In this document: in pieces, positions 5,595 through 25,613 of the stretch | Numbering within the stretch: position 1 is the first letter of the stretch | How the letters are laid out: each line of letters starts with the position of its first letter | IMG/VR virus record: IMGVR_UViG_3300037563_000042 | Coordinates: 1 to 25,613 of that record | DNA from: a virus | Length of the DNA stretch: 25,613 nucleotides | Strand: one strand, 5' to 3' | The notes under the pieces: model-generated | What the model saw: the letters and a program-made list of their open reading frames with translations, nothing else | Database searches by the model: none | Told to the model about the DNA's origin: nothing | Program-made: the position numbers and the translations under genes

Positions 5595-6329
5595 ATGGGA
5601 ACATTCTTTAGTGTAAATGGTACGACAGGTAGTATAGTAACAGCGGGATCAATTACTTCTGCTGGTGTTCCAATTTTGCCAACACACCCATTTTCAGCCG
5701 TTGGAGGACCTTCAGCTGTTACCTTATCAGATGGTACTCCTCTTTGTATTGCAGGTAATCAGTCAGGTCCATGGGGAAATTCTTCACAAATTTACTCTGT
5801 TTCAGATGGAACATGGAGTGCAACAACAGGAGTGTCAGCTTATTCTTTTGAGTGTGGTGGTGGTAATAATTCTATTCTTCTTAATAATGGGAAAGTATTG
5901 ACTGCAGCGGGGAATCCCCCTCCCATGCACTCAGGAGTGTGTGAACTTTATGATCCTGGAACGCAGACATATACTTTAACAGGGTCTCTAAATATTCCAA
6001 GAGCTGAAGCATGTCTCTTTAAATTAAGTGATGGTAGAATTCTAATAGCAGGTGGTGATCTCTCCGATGGTGAAAGTTGTACTAATACCTGTGAAATATA
6101 TGATCCAAGTTTAGGAACATGGACCATGGCTTCCCCCCTCACCACCAATAGAGCTACTGGGCCTTCAGACTTGGGATTTCAACTCCACAATGGAGATTTA
6201 TTGTGGCCTTCTGGAGCTTATAATTTTACTTCATTAAATGGTACATCTGTAGATCGACTTAGCCAAACAGGAATAACTCCAGTAGTAGTTTCAGCAAAAC
6301 AAAAAGCTTCGACAAATTTAGTTTTTTAA
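5595..6329 (+). CDS. Kelch-repeat (beta-propeller type) virion protein (244 aa)
   Basis: ATG at 5595, three bases after the preceding stop. After a Gly/Ser/Thr-rich fibre-like N terminus (to about residue 35), the protein shows Kelch-type blades: LSDGTPLCIAGN...IYSVSDGTWS, LLNNGKVLTAAGN...CELYDPGTQTYTLTG, LSDGRILIAGGD...CEIYDPSLGTWTMAS, and a weaker fourth (LHNGDLLWPSGAY). The markers are a DG.+L.AGG strand pair followed by YD...TW. Kelch propellers normally have six or seven blades of ~50 residues; only about four fit here, so the propeller is incomplete or must be completed by another chain. Such domains bind glycans or proteins, so it may be a receptor-binding or virion decoration protein. 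It is the last gene of the fibre cluster before the GIY-YIG locus. Confidence 0.75.
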   Translation: MGTFFSVNGTTGSIVTAGSITSAGVPILPTHPFSAVGGPSAVTLSDGTPLCIAGNQSGPWGNSSQIYSVSDGTWSATTGVSAYSFECGGGNNSILLNNGKVLTAAGNPPPMHSGVCELYDPGTQTYTLTGSLNIPRAEACLFKLSDGRILIAGGDLSDGESCTNTCEIYDPSLGTWTMASPLTTNRATGPSDLGFQLHNGDLLWPSGAYNFTSLNGTSVDRLSQTGITPVVVSAKQKASTNLVF

Positions 6330-6389: not shown

Positions 6390-6455
6390 ATGAAAAGATT
6401 AAGTGGGATTTATAGGATATTGAATAAGGTTAATGGGAAGGGATATGTAGTATGA
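6390..6455 (+). pseudogene. 21-codon GIY-YIG endonuclease remnant or leader peptide
   Basis: An ATG at 6390 reads MKRLSGIYRILNKVNGKGYV, one more Val, and then TGA (6453-6455). GIY..LNKVNGK.YV is the classical start of a GIY-YIG nuclease domain, but it stops exactly where the Gly of YVG is expected. Its TGA overlaps the ATG of the intact GIY-YIG gene (ATGA at 6452-6455). The purine-rich sequence encoding its NGKG residues also provides that gene's ribosome binding site. It is either the broken 5' end of an earlier endonuclease or a translated leader that couples to the next gene. The intact gene's own start is different (KLGGIYSIVHIESGRPYVG), so this is not simply an alternative start. Confidence 0.7.
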
Positions 6456-7060
6456 CAGATTCTTTTTATAAATTAGGTGGCATTTACTCTATAGTACATA
6501 TTGAAAGTGGAAGACCTTATGTAGGTTCTGCTGTATTGTTTTTTAAACGTTGGTCTGAGCATCGGATGAATTTACGTAGAAATAAACATCCAAATCAAAG
6601 GCTCCAAAATTTTTGGAATAAATACGGAGAAGATGCCTTTGAATTTAAAATAATTGAGGTAATAGAAAATCCAACTAAAGAATTATTAGAATCTAGAGAG
6701 CAGTATTGGATAGATTTTTATAATAGTGCAGATAGAGAAATTGGATTTAATATACGTAAAATTTCTTCTAGTAATTTGGGTTTTAAACATACTGAAGAAA
6801 CTAAACAGAAAATGAGATTGGCACATCTTGGTAAAAAGCAATCTCCTGAGCATATTAAAAATGCTGCTGAATCCCATAGAGGTAAGAAACGCACAGCAGA
6901 GCAAGCAAAACGATGTGCTCGTACTTGGACACCAGAACAAAGGAAACAGCGTAGTGAACAGCAAAAACAAATTTTTCAGAGAGATGGGATGTCAGAAGAA
7001 ACACGTCAGAAATGCAGAGAAGCAGCTTTAGAGCAGTGGAAGAAACAAAAACAAATCTAA
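6452..7060 (+). CDS. GIY-YIG homing endonuclease (202 aa)
   Basis: ATG at 6452 with GGGAAGGGA upstream (6435-6443). The nuclease domain has GIY at residues 10-12, YVG at 23-25, Arg33 and His37 in KRWSEH, the N..LQ..W.KYG....F segment (48-63), and Glu83 in LESREQYWIDFY, the positions expected for catalytic Tyr, Tyr, Arg and Glu. Residues about 106-155 carry NUMOD3-type DNA-binding repeats (LGFKHTEETKQKMRLAHLGK, then GKKRTAEQAKR). The Lys/Arg/Gln-rich C terminus probably contacts DNA. It is a free-standing selfish endonuclease that would cut a cognate allele lacking the insertion, most likely near the fibre-neck boundary. It has its own promoter P2. Nothing indicates a surrounding intron or intein. 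Confidence 0.92.
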   Translation: MTDSFYKLGGIYSIVHIESGRPYVGSAVLFFKRWSEHRMNLRRNKHPNQRLQNFWNKYGEDAFEFKIIEVIENPTKELLESREQYWIDFYNSADREIGFNIRKISSSNLGFKHTEETKQKMRLAHLGKKQSPEHIKNAAESHRGKKRTAEQAKRCARTWTPEQRKQRSEQQKQIFQRDGMSEETRQKCREAALEQWKKQKQI

Positions 7061-7100: not shown

Positions 7101-7643
7101 TTGCCAGATCAGAGTACCCATGGCCCTGACGGTCTTGAGAATTATTTTCTTTGGATTCGAGAGAAGGACCGTTGGATTTTAAACATGTCCTCAGAGCGTG
7201 TGCTCTTATATAAGAGACGCTATGAAGGTCAACGTTGCCCTTTGTTTGATGAAATAAGACATACAAATGCTCAACATGAGGATAAGGTCTGTTTCGGTAC
7301 TGGGTATATAGCTTATGATGCAAATCCCACAGGCCCAAATGCTGGTGGTCCTTATTATGGGTTCTTCCAAGCAGTCGAAATAGAAGTAAGTCTTCTTTCA
7401 AGTGGTCCTGAAGATTTGGCATTATCTGATTATGGGCAAACTAGAATTTATAAGCCACATTCGTGGACCCTATGGGAACCTCTCTTAACTCCAGGGGATA
7501 TGATTGTTCGTCGTAATAATGAAAGATTTTTGGTAACTGAAGTATTTATTCGACGTTGGAAGCATTTTGCACTTCATCAGGACTTTAATTTGGCTGAAGT
7601 AGAACGTGGATCTATTCTATATCAGTTGCCTAGTGGACTTTAA
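7101..7643 (+). CDS. Putative neck / head-tail connector protein (180 aa)
   Basis: The most plausible start is TTG at 7101; an in-frame stop at 7065 excludes long extension, and GGAG at 7083-7086 is rather distant. The protein has a charged N terminus (GPDGLENYFLWIREKDRW), a segment RVLLYKRRYEGQRC followed by Cys46, His54, His59 and Cys64, GTGYIAYD, then SWTLWEPLL, DMIVRRNNERFLVTEV and a C-terminal VERGSILYQLP. The pattern resembles small virion proteins encoded just before the tail terminator and sheath in contractile-tailed phages. Cys46/His54/His59/Cys64 may be a degraded or variant metal site. The stop is two bases before the next ATG. The product class is inferred from position and family pattern. 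The weak start may reflect the endonuclease inserted just upstream. Confidence 0.6.
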   Translation: MPDQSTHGPDGLENYFLWIREKDRWILNMSSERVLLYKRRYEGQRCPLFDEIRHTNAQHEDKVCFGTGYIAYDANPTGPNAGGPYYGFFQAVEIEVSLLSSGPEDLALSDYGQTRIYKPHSWTLWEPLLTPGDMIVRRNNERFLVTEVFIRRWKHFALHQDFNLAEVERGSILYQLPSGL

Positions 7644-7645
7644 AA

Positions 7646-9019
7646 ATGGCTAATTCAAATCCTTATCTCATATTGACCAGGGTACGCAATGCTGTAATTC
7701 TTGAGCTTAGAGAAATCTTTGCTCCTAGGCATAATCTTTCTGTTGTGCCTCCATTTGAATATCCATACATTGAATCAGCAGCTACTGGAGCTGTTCAGTT
7801 TTATGGTAATCCTTCTGTAGGAAATACTTTAACGATTGGTTTAAATACAATTACATTTGGCACAGATGTTGCTATTGGTCTTACTCAGCAAATTACTTTA
7901 GCAAATTTGGTTGCCTATATTAATGCTCATTCCTCAACTCTGTTAGTAGCAGCTACAACCAATTCAATTCCAAATAAAGTGTCTCTTACTGCAATTATAA
8001 CAGGAGTTTCAGGAAATGCTATTACTCTAGCTGTTTCGTCAACTGTTCTAAGAGTTTCAGCCCCTACTTTAACTCAAGGTGGATTATTCGATTTCGATAA
8101 TTCGGAAATTTTTATTAGTGATGCAGTGCCAGCAGATTATCAAGATTGGCCAGCCGTCGTCGTCGATACCGCTAGTGCAAGCGAGACCCGATACTTAGGA
8201 CCAGAGGACTCTTTTGAATTAAAGAATTCTGCTAATGTAGTTACACAATCAGAAATTTTCTCTAGTCTTGTGGTTGTTGTAAATATTAAAGTTTATACAA
8301 TTGATGATACCTTAGCCAGAGATAAAATTGTTGACCTAATTTATAATAATATGTCTGAAATTCGGCATCAGTTGGCTGTAAACGGTATAGAGATGATTGA
8401 TCGTACAATGCCAAATGAAACTAGGATAGCTCAAAATCAAAGAATTTATATTGAAAATCATTTTATTTTAAGGGTTTATTGTGAATGGAGTGATAGTCTT
8501 ACTCCTATTGTTAATGTATCAGGTATTGGGGTTTCAGTTCCAGTTTATACAAATGCAGTACCAATTATAAATAGTCCCTTAAGTGCTTCTTATAGCCATG
8601 GGATGCAATTTGTAGTGGATAGTGTAGTAGATGGATCTCATTTAAATGTAGAAAGTGCTTATGGAATGTCTAATGGGGATATAATTGTTCAAGGCACACA
8701 TAGCACTACAATTATAAATGTAATAGATAACAATCATTTACAAGTAGGGTCTACAACAGGTTGGGTAACAGGAAATGCTACAGACACATCAGCTAATTTA
8801 CCATTTAACTATCAAATTACAGCTTTAAATAGTCCCACTTTGCCCTATGGATGGGCATCAATACCTCCTGCTACACCACCTGTTCCAGGATTGAGCCTAG
8901 ACACTTCCAATGGGCTTATAAGCGGTGTTCCTAGTGTTAATGGAACCTATTATCTTACTCTATCTGCTTCTAATGCAACTGGTACAGGTACACAAAGTCT
9001 CACTTTAACTGTTTCATAA
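7646..9019 (+). CDS. Tail-terminator-like protein with inserted beta domain and interrupted Ig-like domain (457 aa)
   Basis: ATG at 7646, two bases after the preceding stop. The core is split. Residues 1-46 (RVRNAVILELREIFA...YPYIE) continue at about 148 (FDFDNSEIFISDAVPADYQD, then VVVVNIKVYTIDDTLARDKI and LAVNGIEM, ending near FILRVYCEWSD at ~283). This resembles tail terminator/completion proteins and suits the position directly before the sheath. Residues about 47-147 are an inserted beta domain (NTLTIGLNTITF...NLVAYINAHS...GVSGNAITLA). A C-terminal putative Ig domain of He_PIG type begins VPIINSPLSAS (about 304), is interrupted at about 320-384 by a module with GMSNGDIIVQG and HLQVGSTTGW, and resumes at FNYQITALNSP, ending LSLDTSNGLISGVP...GTGTQSLTLTVS. 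The extra domains probably project from the tail neck. The terminator call is inference. Confidence 0.65.
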   Translation: MANSNPYLILTRVRNAVILELREIFAPRHNLSVVPPFEYPYIESAATGAVQFYGNPSVGNTLTIGLNTITFGTDVAIGLTQQITLANLVAYINAHSSTLLVAATTNSIPNKVSLTAIITGVSGNAITLAVSSTVLRVSAPTLTQGGLFDFDNSEIFISDAVPADYQDWPAVVVDTASASETRYLGPEDSFELKNSANVVTQSEIFSSLVVVVNIKVYTIDDTLARDKIVDLIYNNMSEIRHQLAVNGIEMIDRTMPNETRIAQNQRIYIENHFILRVYCEWSDSLTPIVNVSGIGVSVPVYTNAVPIINSPLSASYSHGMQFVVDSVVDGSHLNVESAYGMSNGDIIVQGTHSTTIINVIDNNHLQVGSTTGWVTGNATDTSANLPFNYQITALNSPTLPYGWASIPPATPPVPGLSLDTSNGLISGVPSVNGTYYLTLSASNATGTGTQSLTLTVS

Positions 9020-9173
9020 TTTAAGTAGATAAGATTCATTTAAGAGATAAAAAGTATAATAAAAATGAGTATATATAGAGATACTACGCGCAAGCGTAGG
9101 TTGTTGCTATTTTAAAAACAAATTTTTGTAAGAAAAAATAGATTTAAAACTTAGTAGCTATAAGGAGATTCCT
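9020..9173 (+). other. 154-base leader of the sheath gene with a GCAA-capped hairpin
   Basis: This is the longest gene-free stretch of the window. CTACGC (9084-9089) and GCGTAG (9094-9099) form a perfect 6-bp stem capped by GCAA, a GNRA-type tetraloop; no T-run follows directly. A TATAAT occurs at 9055-9060, but no acceptable -35 sits upstream, so I do not call a promoter with confidence. The sheath ribosome binding site AAGGAG is at 9162-9167. The hairpin may stabilise or control the abundant sheath message. Confidence 0.45.
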
Positions 9174-11444
9174 ATGCCTCAAGTACAAGGCCAATTTACG
9201 ACACCTGGTGTTTACTCTACTGTCCAAGCTAATGCTGAGCCTACAAGTGGCCAAGGTGTAAGAATTCCTGCCCTTATTGGTACTGGTAAGCAAACCAATA
9301 CTGCATCGAACATTGCCATTACTCGTGGCAGTGGATCTACAGATACATTATCTCCTGCTGCAGTTTCTATTGATGGGAATATTCAAGATCAGAATTTTAT
9401 TGTCTACTACAATGGTGTTGACTTCACATTGAATAGTGGAAATGTTGAATGGCTTACACTTGCTGCTCAACTTACTGGAACCACAAGTGATCCCTATGCA
9501 AGTTTGATGGGATTGAATTTCCAACTAGCCATTGCTAATGGTGCAGTACAAACAATTCCTCTTACAACGGAAACAACTGCTACTGCAGTAGCTGCAACAT
9601 TGAATGCATATTTTACTGCACATTCTATTGCTGCACATGCTTCTTCAACAGCAACTCCTCTACCTTCCCCACTTCTTACAGCAGCTACTTATGCTGTGAT
9701 TGCAAGTAGTGCAATTACTAATACAGGAAGTACTACTCTTACAGGAGATGCTGCACTTTCTCCTGCTGGTTCAATTACAGGTTCCCCAACAGTCACAGGA
9801 GCAACTAATAATGGTAATTCAGCAGCGGCAACAGCTTTAGCTGATGCTAATACTGCTTACACAGCATTTGCGGCCCTTCCTGGTGCCACAGTTCTAACGG
9901 GCGATTTGGGTGGAAAAACTCTTACCGCTGGTGTCTATAAGTATAGTTCTTCAGCAGCCTTAACAGGTACTTTGACATTAGATGCAGCAGGTGATCCCCA
10001 TGCACAATGGATATTCCAGATTGGAAGTACTTTAACTACAGCTGCAGCTTCTTCTGTTGTTATCATCAATGGTGGAAGTGCAGGAAATGTTTATTGGCAA
10101 GTTGGTAGTTCTGCTACATTGGGAACTACAACAGCATTCAAGGGAACTATTCTTGCTCAAGCAAGTGTAACAGCTACAACTGGTGCAATTGTTCAAGGAC
10201 GACTATTTGCTCTTACAGCTGCTGTAACACTAGATACAAACACAGTAACCGTTGTTCCTGGTGGATCTTATTCTTCAGGGGCTCTCGTAGTTTCTTCGAC
10301 TGCCACTTCAGATTCTTCACTTTATATTGGAACTGGCACAGCCAATGCAATTCTTGGTTTTACTGCAGGTTCCTTTAAAGAAACTCCTCAAGCTCCTCTC
10401 GCTGGTGTTGAGTATTATGTAACCTATGAGTATGCTAAAGTTGCTGCTGATTATACTCCTAAGTTCTATTATACACTAGCAGCTGTTGTGACTGATTATG
10501 GTCCAGTTAGCAGTTTCACATCCATTTCACTCGGTGCAAGTTTAGCATTCCAAAATGGTGCTCCTGAAGTTTGTGTTTGCCAGGAAAGCCCTTTTGACGG
10601 TGGATCACCTATTGCACAAGTTCAAGCCGCCTTGAATAAACTTCTTTCTACACAGAATATCAGCATTGTAGTTTCACTTGAAGGAGCTTCAAATGCACAG
10701 CTTCTTCCAGCAATTAAACAACATGTTGATACTGCAAGTTCTACTATTAATCGATTAGAGCGAACAGCTATTGTAGGTTTCGATGAGACCGTTGCAATTT
10801 ATTCAGACCAGAATATGATTGATTATGCAGCTTCAGTCAATGATAATCGTATTGTGCTTTTGAATTCTTCAACTGTTAAGAATACAATGTACATCGGACA
10901 GGCAACCACTGCAACAGCAGTAGGTAGCCAATTTGTTGCTGCAGCACTTGCTGGTGTTCGTTGTAATAGTGCATATGACGTAGCACAGCCTATGACTCGT
11001 GAAGTCATTTCTGGATTTGCAACCATTGCAAATACTTTGACACAGGCAGAGAAATCCTTACTTATTAATGAAGGTGTTTGTGTAATTGATACTCTTCAAT
11101 CTGTTCCAAAGGTTTTGTTTGGCACAACTACAGATCCTTCTACTGTACTTTCACAACTCTTTCAAATTACTCAGATTGCTGATTACACCACACAGACATT
11201 GCGTGGACTTCTCGATCCAATTTTCATCGGTCAGAAACTTTTGGCAAACACGCCAAGCCAAGTAGCTACTGTTGTATCAGCGATTCTTTCAACTATTCAA
11301 CAGAGTAATATCATTGTTTCATTTACACAACCTGTTGTAACAGTTGATGTTAATGATGCAACGAGATTGGACGTTTCAGTAGGTATCGTGCCAGTCTTAG
11401 AAGCAGATATTATTTTCATAACGCTTGGTTTGAATCTTCAGTAA
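9174..11444 (+). CDS. Tail sheath protein with an inserted DUF3494 (ice-binding type) domain (756 aa)
   Basis: ATG at 9174 follows AAGGAG. The N terminus has the sheath-typical FTTPGVYSTVQ, and the C-terminal ~270 residues have the conserved sheath region (MTREVISGFATIANTLTQAE, LLINEGVCVIDTL, VTVDVNDATRLDVSVGIVPV). Sheath subunits surround the tube and contract at infection. Between a helix at about 140-160 (TAVAATLNAYFTAHSIA) and a strand at about 367 (GALVVSSTATSDSSLYIGTG), residues ~165-363 form a foreign domain. It contains ATYAVIASSAITNTGSTTLT, NTAYTAFAALPG, LGGKTLTAGVYKYSSSAALT, AQWIFQIGSTLTT, VYWQVGSSATLGTTTAFKGT, GRLFALTAAVTLDTNTVTV. These are the signatures of DUF3494, the beta-solenoid ice-binding family. 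The flanks rejoin into one small domain, so the insertion is in a loop and should face outward. At 756 residues the protein is correspondingly long. Confidence 0.93.
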   Translation: MPQVQGQFTTPGVYSTVQANAEPTSGQGVRIPALIGTGKQTNTASNIAITRGSGSTDTLSPAAVSIDGNIQDQNFIVYYNGVDFTLNSGNVEWLTLAAQLTGTTSDPYASLMGLNFQLAIANGAVQTIPLTTETTATAVAATLNAYFTAHSIAAHASSTATPLPSPLLTAATYAVIASSAITNTGSTTLTGDAALSPAGSITGSPTVTGATNNGNSAAATALADANTAYTAFAALPGATVLTGDLGGKTLTAGVYKYSSSAALTGTLTLDAAGDPHAQWIFQIGSTLTTAAASSVVIINGGSAGNVYWQVGSSATLGTTTAFKGTILAQASVTATTGAIVQGRLFALTAAVTLDTNTVTVVPGGSYSSGALVVSSTATSDSSLYIGTGTANAILGFTAGSFKETPQAPLAGVEYYVTYEYAKVAADYTPKFYYTLAAVVTDYGPVSSFTSISLGASLAFQNGAPEVCVCQESPFDGGSPIAQVQAALNKLLSTQNISIVVSLEGASNAQLLPAIKQHVDTASSTINRLERTAIVGFDETVAIYSDQNMIDYAASVNDNRIVLLNSSTVKNTMYIGQATTATAVGSQFVAAALAGVRCNSAYDVAQPMTREVISGFATIANTLTQAEKSLLINEGVCVIDTLQSVPKVLFGTTTDPSTVLSQLFQITQIADYTTQTLRGLLDPIFIGQKLLANTPSQVATVVSAILSTIQQSNIIVSFTQPVVTVDVNDATRLDVSVGIVPVLEADIIFITLGLNLQ

Positions 11445-11472
11445 TTAGTAGAATAAACAAATTCGGTATGAA

Positions 11473-11506
11473 GTGGGTGGGGAGAACTTAGAGACTCTCC
11501 ACTCAT
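11473..11506 (+). other. Hairpin between sheath and HNH genes
   Basis: GTGGGTGGGGAG (11473-11484) can pair with CTCTCCACTCAT (11495-11506), 12 pairs of which three are G-T, around a 10-base loop. An ACCTCCT stretch (11512-11518), complementary to a Shine-Dalgarno sequence, follows just before the AAGGA of the HNH gene. There is no T-run, so it is not a standard terminator. It may protect the sheath message end or limit translation of the endonuclease. Confidence 0.5.
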
Positions 11507-11534
11507 GGATTACCTCCTCTCTAAGGAATTAAAA

Positions 11535-12194
11535 ATGAGCAAGAAAAAGAAAAAAGCTGACAAAAGATTTAAACGATTTTGTCCTAAAAGGCATGATACT
11601 TTTATATACGGCAGGGATAAAAGTATGGGTCGTTGCCTAGAATGTGTTAGAATATACCATTTAAAACTTCGAAAGAGAAATGCCAAAAAGTTAAAGAAGT
11701 ACAGTCATGAAAGTTATTTAAAAAATAAGAAAAAAGTAATTAGACAAGTTAAACGATGGCGAAAGAAACATAGGAAAGTTTGGGATGCTTATGTAATTCA
11801 ATATCAGAAAGAACATAAAAAAGAGAGAAAAGAAAGAGCTAGAAAATATTTTCAAAAACACAAAAAACGAATACTAAAATATCGTAGAGCGCATCCTGAA
11901 ATTTATAAATTAGCTCTTCTAAAACAAAGTAAAAAACGAAGTAAACGCATCCCTAAATTTGGGCAAAAGGGAATTAGAAAATTTTATGCTAATTGTCCTA
12001 GGAATAAACAGGTAGATCACATTATTCCTTTGCTAGGCAAAAAAGTTTCTGGTCTACATGTTCGTTGGAACCTGCAGTATTTATCCCCATCTAAGAATGC
12101 TAGTAAAAATAATAAATGCAACTTAAATAAAATTTCTGAACGATATGGTAGGTTGCTAGAAAAACTTGGTTTAAAAGATAAAAAGAAAAAGTAA
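11535..12194 (+). CDS. HNH homing endonuclease (219 aa)
   Basis: I place the start at ATG 11535, preceded by AAGGA at 11523-11527. An in-frame ATG at 11505 lies inside the upstream hairpin and has no binding site. The N terminus carries Cys16, His20, Cys34 and Cys37 (FCPKRH...GRCLECVR), a likely zinc site. A long, extremely Lys/Arg-rich helical stretch follows (about 40-145). The C-terminal HNH core has QVDHIIPLLGKKVSGLHV with Asp161-His162, the Asn of WNLQYL (179), and SPSKNASKNNK (Asn188). It is a free-standing homing endonuclease, probably cutting alleles without it near the sheath-tube junction. Its coding strand is far richer in A than the neighbours, a sign of separate origin. It sits between two highly expressed structural genes. 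Confidence 0.92.
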   Translation: MSKKKKKADKRFKRFCPKRHDTFIYGRDKSMGRCLECVRIYHLKLRKRNAKKLKKYSHESYLKNKKKVIRQVKRWRKKHRKVWDAYVIQYQKEHKKERKERARKYFQKHKKRILKYRRAHPEIYKLALLKQSKKRSKRIPKFGQKGIRKFYANCPRNKQVDHIIPLLGKKVSGLHVRWNLQYLSPSKNASKNNKCNLNKISERYGRLLEKLGLKDKKKK

Positions 12195-12212: not shown

Positions 12213-12743
12213 ATGGCCGAACTTGGAAATACCTCAGCTAGATTATCAACCTCAGTATCACTATTTTTACTTCCAAAAAACTTGAATGCTACAACTCTGA
12301 ATAACCCAGCTGCCCTATTGAGTTTAGCTCAGCAGTCAACTAAGATTGGTGCTGTTCAATCCTTTACTCAAACTCAGCGTCGAAATACAGATTTCCGATT
12401 TGAATTGGATTCTGATCAGCAGGGGAAACCCGTTGAACGACTTCCAAGAACTGTTGATGAGTATTCTCTTCATGCAGATCGGGTAATGCTTTATGTTTCT
12501 GATGCTCTAGAAATTCTCGGAATTTCTGGTGATGATATTGTGAATAATAATGCTAGTTTTGGGATTTTGAAGGTCGAAATTGCTCCTGCAGGTTCTGGCG
12601 TTCCTACGAAATCTACAATCTTCACAGGAGTTTGGTGCCATTCAGTAGGAGCCACATATAATATCAATGGTGGTGATTTACGAGTCATGGAAAGCGTTGA
12701 TTTCGGATACACAGCATCAACAGTTGTTGGTGAGCCAGCCTAA
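12213..12743 (+). CDS. Tail tube protein (176 aa)
   Basis: ATG at 12213 follows AAGGAGA at 12200-12206. The protein begins MAELGNTSARLSTSVSLFLL and contains the charged patch TQTQRRNTDFRFELDSDQQG, a central TVDEYSLHADRVMLYVSDAL, and a C-terminal beta region ending ATYNINGGDLRVMESVDFGY. Its size, beta-rich character and position between the sheath and the tail assembly chaperones fit the inner tube protein, which stacks as hexamers inside the sheath. No strong catalytic or binding motif is visible. The tube identity is inferred mainly from gene order, and an unrelated tail protein is not excluded. Confidence 0.75.
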   Translation: MAELGNTSARLSTSVSLFLLPKNLNATTLNNPAALLSLAQQSTKIGAVQSFTQTQRRNTDFRFELDSDQQGKPVERLPRTVDEYSLHADRVMLYVSDALEILGISGDDIVNNNASFGILKVEIAPAGSGVPTKSTIFTGVWCHSVGATYNINGGDLRVMESVDFGYTASTVVGEPA

Positions 12744-20817: not shown

Positions 20818-22677
20818 ATGGCCCTCCCAACTTTCAGTCAAATTGTTCAATCGATGTTGTCATTTTTGCAGATATCAAGACCCGATATCAACACAAATTC
20901 TGGGACAGTTGTAAACGATGTAGTTGTATCGACTGTTGCCAATCAATTATCTGCCCAGAATGGGACTGATCCTTCAGTATATGGTAATCTGCAGTATACA
21001 CAAAATCTTCAAGCCTTCGTTGCCAATGCCGCCACAATTCTTCCTGCAGATATGGACAATATTGCAGAAAATTATGGAATGACTCGAAATCCAGGCACTC
21101 AGGCAACTGGATTCATTACATTGCGAATTCGTAATTATACGACTTCTTCTCCCATTATTACTGTTCCTTCTGGAACAACTGTTTCGACTCTATCTACTTC
21201 AGCTACCCCAGCCGTTTCATTTGCCACAACAGCTACAGTAACTTTTACGCCTTCGAATGCACCAAGTTACTATAATCCAGTTTCAGGATTTTATGAGCAA
21301 ACTGTTGGGATTATATGTCAAACAATTGGCACCCTTGGAAATGTTGGTGCAAATACTATTGTCTCTCTTGTGGGTCCTGGTCTTGGAATTGACGCTGTAA
21401 CAAATCAATCTGCAATTAGTGGTGGAACGAATATTGAATCAAATGTACAATTTGCAGCTCGTATTCAAATTAAACTTGAAGGTAATAATGTTGGTACTCC
21501 CAATGGTATCATTTCCCTTATGGAGACAAATCCAAATGTTATTCAAGCTCTTATCGTTGGGCCTAATGATCCTAATCCTCCCTTGCGTAATCAATATGGG
21601 GGAAGTGTCAATGTCTATATTAGGGGGCAGATCCCAGTAACTGTATTGGCAGAACCTTTTACCTATTCTTCAACTGGAAGTCAGCAGTATGTTTTATTGA
21701 ATCAGCCAGCACTATCAGTAGGTTCTGTCACTGGTATTGTTGGGGGTGTACCCTATACTTTTGTAGCTGGAACGGATTACCAATTTGTAGAGAATCCAAA
21801 TCTTTTATATGCGGGAAGTACGGAAGCAGGTAGCTATATTGTATTTGGTAAGTCTACTTATTTTAATATTGTTACGGCAGGTCTTCCCTTTACTGTTACT
21901 ACAGTGACAGATGCAATTCATTTAGTTGTTTCTTCCACTACAGGTATGACGGATGGGGATACAATTGTTCAAGGATCAAACACTACAACAATTACTGTAA
22001 CAGATGGAACACATCTAGTTGTGGGTTCAACAGTTGGATGGGCAGGTAGTGGGGCATCTGCAGTTGATACTTCAGTATCTCAATTGATTGTTAATACAAC
22101 TAATGGAATGAATCCTGGTGATATAATTGTACAAGGAGCTTTCTTCACAACAGTTACTTCTGTCGCCAGTTCAACTAAAGTTGTTGTTGGAAGTATAATT
22201 GGTGCTGGTGCTGGATCTGCCTCATTTTCTGGATTTAAACCAGATAGTAATACCGTGGTTACAATCAATTACACTTATGATAGCTTGATTGCTACACTTC
22301 AAGCCTTGATTAATAATAATTCTAATCATATTGTTGGATCAGATATTTTAGTTGTTGAAGCTATTATTGCATTGATCAATGTAACTATGGGAATTTTGAT
22401 AGTTCCAGGATACGTTCCCGCTACAGTCGTTACAAATGTGCAAACAGCATTATCCACATATATAAATGCCCTTGGTCTTGGAGCAGATGTGATTTTGAGT
22501 GAGGTGGTTGCAATTGCTCAAGATGTTCCTGGAGTTTCGGAGGTTGATCTTAGCAGTTTGATTTTGCAGAGTGTAGAAGGAAATGTAACTACTACAATCC
22601 CACCTGGGCAACAAATTTCTGTAGGCAATGAAGCCTATACCGTTGCAAATAGTTTTACTATAACAGTAGAAGGATAA
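20818..22677 (+). CDS. Baseplate J / gp6-like wedge protein with two inserted IVQG modules (619 aa)
   Basis: ATG at 20818, with AAGGATAATTT just upstream. The N-terminal part has FSQIVQSMLSFLQISRPDIN, ADMDNIAENYGMTRNPGTQA and the Baseplate_J core PSGTTVSTLS, VGIICQTIGTLGNVGANTIV, AISGGTNIESNVQFAARIQI, IRGQIPVTV. Residues about 355-475 hold two tandem modules (GMTDGDTIVQGSNTTTITVT...HLVVGSTVGW and GMNPGDIIVQGAFFTTVTSV...VVVGSI) related to the module in the tail-terminator-like protein. The C terminus resumes with TYDSLIATLQALI, LIVPGYVPATVVTNVQTALS, DVPGVSEVDLSSLI. gp6/J proteins form the inner baseplate ring and connect the wedges. The modules probably extend outward from the ring. The next fibre gene begins five bases after the stop. 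Confidence 0.88.
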   Translation: MALPTFSQIVQSMLSFLQISRPDINTNSGTVVNDVVVSTVANQLSAQNGTDPSVYGNLQYTQNLQAFVANAATILPADMDNIAENYGMTRNPGTQATGFITLRIRNYTTSSPIITVPSGTTVSTLSTSATPAVSFATTATVTFTPSNAPSYYNPVSGFYEQTVGIICQTIGTLGNVGANTIVSLVGPGLGIDAVTNQSAISGGTNIESNVQFAARIQIKLEGNNVGTPNGIISLMETNPNVIQALIVGPNDPNPPLRNQYGGSVNVYIRGQIPVTVLAEPFTYSSTGSQQYVLLNQPALSVGSVTGIVGGVPYTFVAGTDYQFVENPNLLYAGSTEAGSYIVFGKSTYFNIVTAGLPFTVTTVTDAIHLVVSSTTGMTDGDTIVQGSNTTTITVTDGTHLVVGSTVGWAGSGASAVDTSVSQLIVNTTNGMNPGDIIVQGAFFTTVTSVASSTKVVVGSIIGAGAGSASFSGFKPDSNTVVTINYTYDSLIATLQALINNNSNHIVGSDILVVEAIIALINVTMGILIVPGYVPATVVTNVQTALSTYINALGLGADVILSEVVAIAQDVPGVSEVDLSSLILQSVEGNVTTTIPPGQQISVGNEAYTVANSFTITVEG

Positions 22678-22681
22678 TAAT

Positions 22682-25613
22682 ATGATACCCTATACAAATA
22701 AAGTAAATGAATTAGCTATTCCAGTAAGTGTAGGTCCTGAACCGCATGTAATTGGAATTATTGGAACTGCTACATACTCTTCTGGTAATATTCGATTAGT
22801 GCAAGTGCCACAAGGACCTGCACCCCATGTAGCTATTTCTGGTGGGTACACTGAGATTACTAGTGGTTCCCCAACAGGAATGAAGTTTATTGTAAATTAT
22901 GAGACAGGTGTTATTACATTTAATGCTACACAAAATGGGACAAGTATTACAGTTTCTTATACGGGTCTAGGATCGGAAATTGCAGCTGAAGATATTAATG
23001 AACTTCAAAATCCTCTTAGTGCGATTGTTACACAAACACTTACTTATGTATCTCCTTATACCTCAGCTACTGCAACGTGGGTATTAGCTCCTGGTATTGT
23101 TACCAGCACTAGTCTTTCTGGTGCATTAGTTGTTCCTCAAGCAAATATTCAACCCTTGACATTGACTTCATCTACTGCTGTTGCAACAGATGTATCTGGA
23201 CATTTAGTTTCTTCAGCTACTACAGCAACTGAATTAGGCTATGTACATGGTGTTACATCAAATATTCAAACACAATTAAATAATCTTTCTGCTGGTACAA
23301 TAACTTCTGTAGTTGGAACAACGAATGAAATTACTGCCTCTACTGTTTCTGGAGCTGTTACACTATCATTACCTAGTACGGTTGATATTACAACTTTAAA
23401 TTTAACTAATCCTTTAGCAGTAGCTAGTGGTGGAACAGGGCTTGCTGCTCTTACAGCACATGATGTTCTAGTTGGTAATGGAACAAGCAATGTCACCTTA
23501 GTTTCACCAAATACAGCTGGATATGTTCTTACCTCTAATGGTACTTCTGCTGATCCTACTTTTCAGGCTATTCCCGCTAGTACTGGTATTACTGCTTTAA
23601 CAGGGGATGTTACTACTAGTGTTAGTCCTTCTAATCCCTATCTTGGTACAGCATCCACATATGCTGTATTAGGTGAGACAGCCGTTACAAACACAGGAAG
23701 TACTGTTCTTATTGGAAATTTGGGTATTTCTCCCCATAATGCTACTTCAATAACTGGTTTCCCTCCAGGTACATATTCTGGTACAGAAAATGCAGGTAAT
23801 GCCGCCGCTGCTCAAGCACTTGCTGATGCAACTTCTGCTGCAACGACTTTACAGGCAATGGGTCCTGGTACAGACCTATCTTCTACTGATCTAGGTGGTC
23901 ATACTTGTGTTCCAGGCGTTTATCACACATCTTCAACAGCAACATGGTCTGCAGGTAACTTAACCTTAAATGGTGCAGGTACATATATATTCCTAATTGG
24001 TTCAAGCTTAACAATGCCAGCCAATGCAACCGTAGTATTGGAAGGTGGAGCAATCGCTGATAACGTTTACTTCGTAACGGTGTCAACCTTTACCTTTGGT
24101 GCAAATTGTACAGTTAATGGCACTATTTTAGCGGGTACTTCTATTACTTTTGCTTCTAATAGTGTGTTGAATGGTCGTGCTCTTTGTTATGGTCCTTCTG
24201 GAACAACTGTTGCATTCCCAAGTGCAGCTACTGTAACTGTTCCTCCAGGTTCTGGTGGAGTAGAAGTTGCTACATTAGCTACAGTAAATAGTAATGTTGG
24301 ATCATTTACTTGGACTAATTTCACTGTAAATGCAAAGGGCTTAATTACTGCAGCTTCGAGTAATCCAACTCCTGTTACTTCTATCTATGCCGATAGTAAT
24401 CCTCTTTTGACAGGTTCAGTTCAACTAGTTTCTGGCACAAATGTCACTCTTGCTCAAGTGGGTCAGGTTATTACAGTTAATGCAACTGGGGGTGGAAGTG
24501 GTACAGTTTCAAGTGGTACACAATATCAGTTAGGTTATTATGCAGCTACTGGAACAACTATTAGTGGCTTAACCTTAATTTCTCCTTCTAAAGTATTAGT
24601 AAGTGACACAAATGGACTTCCAACTGCTTCTTCAGTAACAACTACAACTTTAGGTTATCTAGATGCAACATCAAGTATCCAAACTCAGCTAAATAGTAAA
24701 CAGGCTTCTGGTTCCTACATTACTTCTTTAACTGGTGATATAACTGCAACGGGTCCAGGTTCAGTAGCTGCGACATTATCCACAGTTAATAGTAACGTGG
24801 GTAGTTTCACCAATGCTAATATTACTGTAAATGCAAAGGGATTAATCACAGCTGCCTCAAACGGCTCTGCTGGTGGTGTAACTGGTGTAAAGACAGGTGC
24901 AGGATCTCCAGAAACTGGTACAATTACTTTAACTGCTGGTACAAATATTACAATTGTTGATTCTCCAGCTGGAACTTTTACAATTAATGCTACTTCTGGT
25001 GGGTCAGGCACAGTTAATAGTGGGACGGTATATCAACTTGCTTATTACTCAGCTACTGGAACGGCTGTTAGTGGGAGTTCCATATTATCTCAAGATGCTG
25101 ATGGTCTAATAATTACAAGTCCAGCACCTTATGTTCGAAGTGCTGCAAGTCTTGACATACTTGCTGCTGCCGATTTATATCTTACTTCTGGTGGAACTAT
25201 CTTTTTATATGGGAACGTAATAGATGCTGCAACTCATAAAATTATTAATCTAGGTAATGGATCAGCTGCCCAGGATGCTGCTGCATTTGGTCAAATTACT
25301 GCAGCTAATGCAGGTGCTTTGGCCTTGTCTGGTGGTACATTGACTGGATCTTTAGGAATTGGGGAATCTCCAGTAGCATCTGCTGTTTTAGATGTTGCTT
25401 CTACAACTCAGGGTTTCCTCCCTCCTCGTATGGCAACTGCAGATAGAGATGCAATAGCATCTCCTGCAACAGGTTTGGAAATTTATAATACAGATACAAA
25501 TAAGCCCGAAGTATATAATGGGACTGCTTGGGTTCCAATGGGTGGAGGATTCCCAGGTGGTTCAGATACCCAGGTTCAATATAATTCTGGTGGTTCATTT
25601 GCAGGAACATCCA
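22682..25613 (+). CDS. Long tail fibre protein with an inserted DUF3494 domain, 3' end outside window (at least 977 aa)
   Basis: ATG at 22682, with AAGGATAATA just upstream; the frame is open to the window end. The N terminus (MIPYTNKVNELAIPVSVGPE, then FIVNYETGVITFNATQNGTS) probably attaches to the baseplate. TATELGYVHGVTSNIQTQLN (~180) and a GGTGLAAL motif (~250) follow. Residues ~320-522 are a DUF3494 ice-binding-type domain: ASTYAVLGETAVTNTG, ITGFPPGTYSGT, AAQALADATSAATTLQAM, LGGHTCVPGVYHTSS, GAGTYIFLIGSSLT, NVYFVTVSTFTFGA, VNGTILAGTSITF, NGRALCYG. Downstream are VNSNVGSF...NAKGLITAAS repeats (two copies), TTTLGYLDATSSIQTQLNSK (~655), a KIINLGNGSAAQDAAAFGQI motif (~855) and FLPPRMATADRDAI...IYNTDTNKPEVYNGTAW (~912-955), a motif often near fibre ends. 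The first repeat is interrupted by the DUF3494 domain. It probably mediates host or surface attachment. Confidence 0.88.
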   Translation, partial: MIPYTNKVNELAIPVSVGPEPHVIGIIGTATYSSGNIRLVQVPQGPAPHVAISGGYTEITSGSPTGMKFIVNYETGVITFNATQNGTSITVSYTGLGSEIAAEDINELQNPLSAIVTQTLTYVSPYTSATATWVLAPGIVTSTSLSGALVVPQANIQPLTLTSSTAVATDVSGHLVSSATTATELGYVHGVTSNIQTQLNNLSAGTITSVVGTTNEITASTVSGAVTLSLPSTVDITTLNLTNPLAVASGGTGLAALTAHDVLVGNGTSNVTLVSPNTAGYVLTSNGTSADPTFQAIPASTGITALTGDVTTSVSPSNPYLGTASTYAVLGETAVTNTGSTVLIGNLGISPHNATSITGFPPGTYSGTENAGNAAAAQALADATSAATTLQAMGPGTDLSSTDLGGHTCVPGVYHTSSTATWSAGNLTLNGAGTYIFLIGSSLTMPANATVVLEGGAIADNVYFVTVSTFTFGANCTVNGTILAGTSITFASNSVLNGRALCYGPSGTTVAFPSAATVTVPPGSGGVEVATLATVNSNVGSFTWTNFTVNAKGLITAASSNPTPVTSIYADSNPLLTGSVQLVSGTNVTLAQVGQVITVNATGGGSGTVSSGTQYQLGYYAATGTTISGLTLISPSKVLVSDTNGLPTASSVTTTTLGYLDATSSIQTQLNSKQASGSYITSLTGDITATGPGSVAATLSTVNSNVGSFTNANITVNAKGLITAASNGSAGGVTGVKTGAGSPETGTITLTAGTNITIVDSPAGTFTINATSGGSGTVNSGTVYQLAYYSATGTAVSGSSILSQDADGLIITSPAPYVRSAASLDILAAADLYLTSGGTIFLYGNVIDAATHKIINLGNGSAAQDAAAFGQITAANAGALALSGGTLTGSLGIGESPVASAVLDVASTTQGFLPPRMATADRDAIASPATGLEIYNTDTNKPEVYNGTAWVPMGGGFPGGSDTQVQYNSGGSFAGTS

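Follow-up and report, generated by a model that had tools for sequence, protein, structure and literature searches.

A DUF3494 ice-binding-type domain inserted in a phage tail sheath protein: a candidate mobile adhesive module of the virion surface

The window analyzed here is a 25.6-kb IMG/VR virus contig taken at its full length (25,613 nucleotides), and the features of its tail module are collected in table 1. The tail sheath ORF carries a match to PF11999 (Ice_binding, Pfam hmmscan) at residues 175–359 that covers the entire profile (positions 1–208 of 208) with a score of 188.6 bits (cut-off, 28.7). The presence of a complete DUF3494 domain in a sheath protein, proposed in an earlier sequence-only reading, is thereby confirmed with boundaries correct to within ~10 residues. 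The assignment of the rest of the ORF to a tail sheath holds as well, based on a match of residues 443–719 to the tail sheath family phrog_2839 and a fold match to the sheath of phage 812. The solved relatives closest to the domain by sequence are EfcIBP (6eio, E 1.8e-41), 5uyt, and AnpIBP1a (7bwx).

Table 1. Features of the tail module in the window and of one other contig (L218)
Feature	Position	Strand	Evidence
Tail sheath ORF with insert, 756 aa	9174..11444	+	phrog_2839 E 1.3e-38; Foldseek 8q1i_I TMt 0.71
Beta strand 5' of insert, residues 154–162, hairpin arm 1	9633..9659	+	DSSP on model; empty-site alignment
Inserted DUF3494 (PF11999) beta-solenoid, residues 165–363	9666..10262	+	Pfam; model
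Pfam PF11999 match within inserted domain	9696-10250	+	hmmscan E 1.5e-55
Beta strand 3' of insert, residues 367–375, hairpin arm 2	10272..10298	+	DSSP on model; L022 alignment
Sheath C-terminal body, conserved	10341..11441	+	alignment A2 and 56 viral relatives; phrog_2839
176-aa ORF directly downstream of sheath, probably tail tube	12213..12743	+	blastp synteny; 86–93% conserved in most phages of the group
Baseplate J-like protein, anchors tail module	20818..22677	+	PF04865 E 1e-18; phrog_6
Fibre-like ORF with second DUF3494, runs off contig end	22682..25612	+	open-ended ORF; PF11999 E 2e-39
Second DUF3494 domain, other subtype	23666..24187	+	E 8.7e-43; alignment; tree
Sheath with circularly permuted DUF3494	L218:4221-7982		

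The sheath gene lies in a tail context that includes Baseplate J and Sheath_initiator-like ORFs in an order conserved in relatives, and this gene order is the basis for the tentative naming of the tail tube. The second PF11999 domain, which the earlier reading had missed, is ~48% identical to the first. The fibre-like ORF that contains it shows 97% protein identity to a fibre-like copy in phage G013. A further ORF in the tail fibre region (5595–6329) has Kelch-repeat matches.

The structure of the whole sheath was predicted from a 47-row alignment, replacing an earlier model that was poor in the sheath body. Mean pLDDT is 77 for the model and ~95 for the insert, with lower-confidence linkers at both insert ends; the insert consists of a helix (residues 216–233) and solenoid strands. 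A Foldseek search with this single model retrieves ice-binding crystal structures (7bwy, TMt 0.94) as well as contractile sheaths, where phage 812 (8q1i_I) is followed by 9gts_2A and 6rc8_B (0.69 each) and several matches lie at 0.57–0.69. The best structural matches of the domain (7bwy, 6eio, and 7bwx) are proteins proven to bind ice. An ordinary sheath fold for the insert is ruled out by the high pLDDT together with the ice-binding beta-solenoid fold. In the model, the insertion falls within a hairpin belonging to a small accessory domain of the sheath. The predicted strands on either side of the insert, together with natural homologues that have an empty site, support the proposal that the two flanks come together again in one small domain. 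Among the best 50 matches to predicted viral structures, the named ones are sheaths, tail proteins, or Hyperionvirus DUF3494 proteins, and none was seen to match both the sheath and the DUF3494 part.

A profile of the sheath body reached 56 viral loci. Five of these relatives (L052, L053, L054, L057, and L058), with ~50% body identity, encode sheaths of 565–569 aa without the insert. In other relatives DUF3494 occupies the hairpin used in the window (site A), and the sheaths of L061, L062, and L063 carry it at another loop (site B); the alignment of the site-B sheath L022 shows no insert at the site-A position. The phage L190, which has an empty sheath, retains most of the tail-module gene order of the window, and no PF11999 match was found anywhere in its 151-kb contig. 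The insert is dispensable and natural empty sites are known, as befits an accessory domain. An assembly artefact, in which a phage sheath gene would have been joined to DUF3494 from a bacterium, has nothing in its favour except the surprise of the fusion and is rejected. The fused sheath occurs with identical junctions in three other, independent metagenomes (98% protein identity), and many divergent contigs carry the fusion as well; it is in frame in every case and lies within a conserved tail module. A different sheath, that of the Tunturiibacter phage Tunturi_5 (L006:12469-16083, 1204 aa), has large inserts without a Pfam match.

The sequence-only reading had also proposed looking for the same fusion in other phages. 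A total of 28 viral contigs (counted by hand and including some near-identical copies of one phage) carry DUF3494 within a sheath, in several loops of four sheath groups comprising 18 contigs in the group of the window (the window counted), 2, 7, and 1. The fusion was absent from the reference collections: no PHROGs family matches the domain, and tblastn searches with the sheath domain, the second window domain, and the L009 domain gave no match in 50,697 phage records, a count from which the BLAST low-complexity filter may hide some matches (as a positive control, the sheath-domain query matched 38 plasmid records). L218 and L219 exceed the Pfam cut-offs for both PF11999 and PF17482 (Phage_sheath_1C) and match phrog_10581; L234 matches phrog_279, and L228–L233 are homologous to L234 (E ~1e-61 or better); L208 matches the sheath-body profile (8e-38) and, weakly, phrog_16991. 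In L218 and L228–L234 the domain is circularly permuted, running roughly from profile position 45 to 196 and then from 2 to 54. The L218 and L219 sheaths are 73% identical and have the same insert site, but one domain is permuted and the other is not. Permutation at one site implies that the domain ends must be close in space, and with adjacent ends the domain can be dropped into hairpins. As the permuted copies show, a contractile machine can accommodate the rewiring in place of a 200-residue domain; a literature search found no paper on a naturally permuted ice-binding domain.

Next, the history of the domain was compared with that of its carriers. Mapping the site-A label onto the sheath-body tree needs five changes, of which at least three are forced by supported branches, and on the same tree the occupied L046 is the sister of the empty L053. 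The window and L048 are 49% identical in the N flank, 83% in the domain, and 56% in the body, and the corresponding values are 60%, 93%, and 55% for L056 and L043 but 66%, 42%, and 87% for L056 and L046. Since domain and body identities diverge in both directions, cassette and carrier have separate histories. In the L043–L056 pair, dS is 0.61 in the domain versus 1.70 in the body. Phages with a sheath DUF3494 often have one to four extra copies, most of them in fibre-like proteins or in other proteins of the tail module, giving five copies per phage in G006 and G014 and four in G007 and G019. Within single genomes, similarity at the DNA level does not extend beyond the domain, both between a sheath and a fibre copy of G006 (78.3%) and between two other ORFs of G014 (86.9%). 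A quick tree of the domains, of which only the starred branches are relied on, groups eight site-A domains at 99 (starred) and the site-B domains at 100 (starred), and the sheath domain of L046 is nested among fibre-type copies. The DUF3494 domain has been gained, lost, swapped, and rewired many times in the tails of related phages.

Several further observations concern the surroundings of the domain. A DUF3494-bearing tail protein follows the fibre in L181 (17203–19404), L182 (16961–19168), and L179 (16805–18871), and in this protein G006 carries the domain at a different loop from the one shared by G007 and G013. Over its first 156 codons (9174–9640) the window sheath gene shares 99.4% DNA identity with L003, against 93–96% over the remainder, which points to recent gene conversion. 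The block at 7642–11446 is common to the window and L003 (87% DNA identity), and a GIY-YIG homing endonuclease (6452–7060) and an endonuclease VII-like ORF (11505–12194), located near its two ends, are possible drivers of its exchange. A small repeat (VTDGTHLVVSSTTGM...) recurs in the sheaths of L048, L050, L051, and L056 and in the window at 20818–22677 and 7646–9019; the ORFs with the VTDGTHLVVSSTTGM repeat are sheath, baseplate, and upstream tail ORFs, and the repeat is perhaps a second mobile module.

The ratio omega is 0.06–0.30 for the domain (seven pairs) versus 0.04–0.26 for the body, and none of the listed DUF3494 domains contains a stop codon. The domain is therefore maintained as a folded protein, although purifying selection would partly be expected anyway if the domain needed only to fold harmlessly for assembly to proceed. 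Profile, structure, empty-site, selection, and independent-contig evidence together bear out the earlier view that a foreign solenoid is housed by a loop of a functional sheath, and hence that many copies line the tail shaft. The low omega values, the lack of internal stops, and the repeated independent retention of the domain in sheaths and fibres argue against a near-neutral or selfish cassette that is tolerated and spreads by recombination with no benefit to the phage; such a cassette would account for the patchy gain and loss, the intragenomic copying, and the many landing sites, but is judged very improbable. Purifying selection is also what would be seen if the solenoid packed on its neighbours and stiffened or cemented the tail without any external ligand, and stabilisation of the phage 812 tail has been suggested as a role of sheath accessory domains (PMC9230969). 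However, close relatives with sheaths of 565–569 aa do without the domain, and varied loops, permutations, and carriage by fibres and other tail proteins fit poorly with specific subunit packing, which makes a structural role quite unlikely.

The best reading, which is considered somewhat probable, is an adhesive DUF3494 coat with one solenoid per sheath subunit on the tail exterior. A complete beta-solenoid, self-contained and with its ends side by side, has been inserted into the hairpin loop of the accessory domain, leaving a sheath core that still folds and should assemble and contract. If the core does assemble, each subunit would therefore show one solenoid outside the tail. Exterior display is suggested by the accessory-domain position of the insert and by the published placement of sheath accessory domains, which lie away from the tube and have been proposed to aid adhesion or stability (PMC9230969). 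Together, the solenoids would form a dense, multivalent coat of individually weak adhesive contacts that may hold the virion to cell-surface or extracellular polymers, particles, or ice, thereby increasing encounter or retention. Two routes account for the spread of the cassette: phages exchange it by recombination, and it is copied from one structural gene to another within a genome.

True ice binding, in which the coat grips ice crystals and either protects against freeze–thaw or holds the phage and a cold-habitat host at the ice, is considered unlikely. The proven activity of the top structural matches is consistent with it, and PF11999 genes of Arctic vOTUs have been interpreted as cryoprotective (PMC11515562). 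However, homology alone is not decisive for an ice-binding function, PF11999 has been reported from many ice-free settings, and its ice-binding column varies by environment (PMC12337378). Outside phages, the closest domains found reach at most 59% identity and belong to many soil bacteria, mesophilic Streptomyces among them. General adhesion is favoured over ice alone, because of these bacterial relatives and ice-free environments, because a role in adhesion or stability has been proposed for sheath accessory domains, and because bacterial DUF3494 proteins are often coupled to adhesion domains (PMC9957290). The sheath-body profile had no match in 12 genomes with a related DUF3494 or in 396 Acidobacteriota genomes.

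With these results the beta-solenoid would join the few folds with which phages decorate their tails, and they suggest that DUF3494 is a transferable adhesive unit of the virion exterior, with ice or something else as its target. The purpose of sheath accessory domains becomes testable through clean natural experiments, namely sites with and without the domain, swaps, and a permutation at a single site. Should the coat bind ice or polymers of the environment, it would reveal a way in which phages last and reach their hosts in soils that are frozen or rich in particles, and it would offer a self-assembling scaffold for multivalent display. A tentative picture, possible but short of probable, is that of a mobile and sometimes circularly permuted solenoid on the tail shafts and fibres of several phage groups. 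Hundreds of individually weak contacts would then attach the entire virion to ice or to soil surfaces, by means of a recombining surface module that differs from the known Ig-like ones.

In a literature search that covered few subscription journals, no paper was found on DUF3494 in a phage or on an ice-binding domain in a tail sheath. Virus-encoded DUF3494 is known from the PF11999 genes of Arctic vOTUs (PMC11515562) and the giant Hyperionvirus proteins (BFVD hits), but these are reported as auxiliary genes or free proteins and not as sheath parts; neither the Synechococcus phage S-SKS1, named in PMC11515562, nor Tunturi_5 gave a PF11999 match. The closest viral fold match of the sheath is Gp178 of Bacillus phage G (579 aa, E 8.9e-23, 24% identity), which resembles the insert-free sheaths in length and is not annotated with DUF3494. 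EfcIBP (6eio), AnpIBP1a (7bwx/7bwy), and SfIBP_1 (6bg8) have the same fold as the insert, which is likewise full-length, and structural alignment with the best three ice-binding structures gives TM scores of 0.86–0.94 at 43–45% identity; known ice-binding proteins are secreted or membrane-tethered, whereas the domain described here is an internal insert of a virion protein. The nearest parallel in tail architecture is provided by the Ig-like and other sheath accessory domains (Evseev et al. 2022, PMC9230969), which are likewise extra domains gained in evolution by a conserved core. Those domains are mostly Ig-like beta-sandwiches and in a few cases alpha-helical, and a text search of that study found no ice-binding or antifreeze domain. 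Here the domain is a DUF3494 beta-solenoid and, unlike those domains, its cassette has been swapped among sheath groups and is sometimes permuted; by analogy, the coat might nevertheless act in the way that is thought for phage Ig-like domains.
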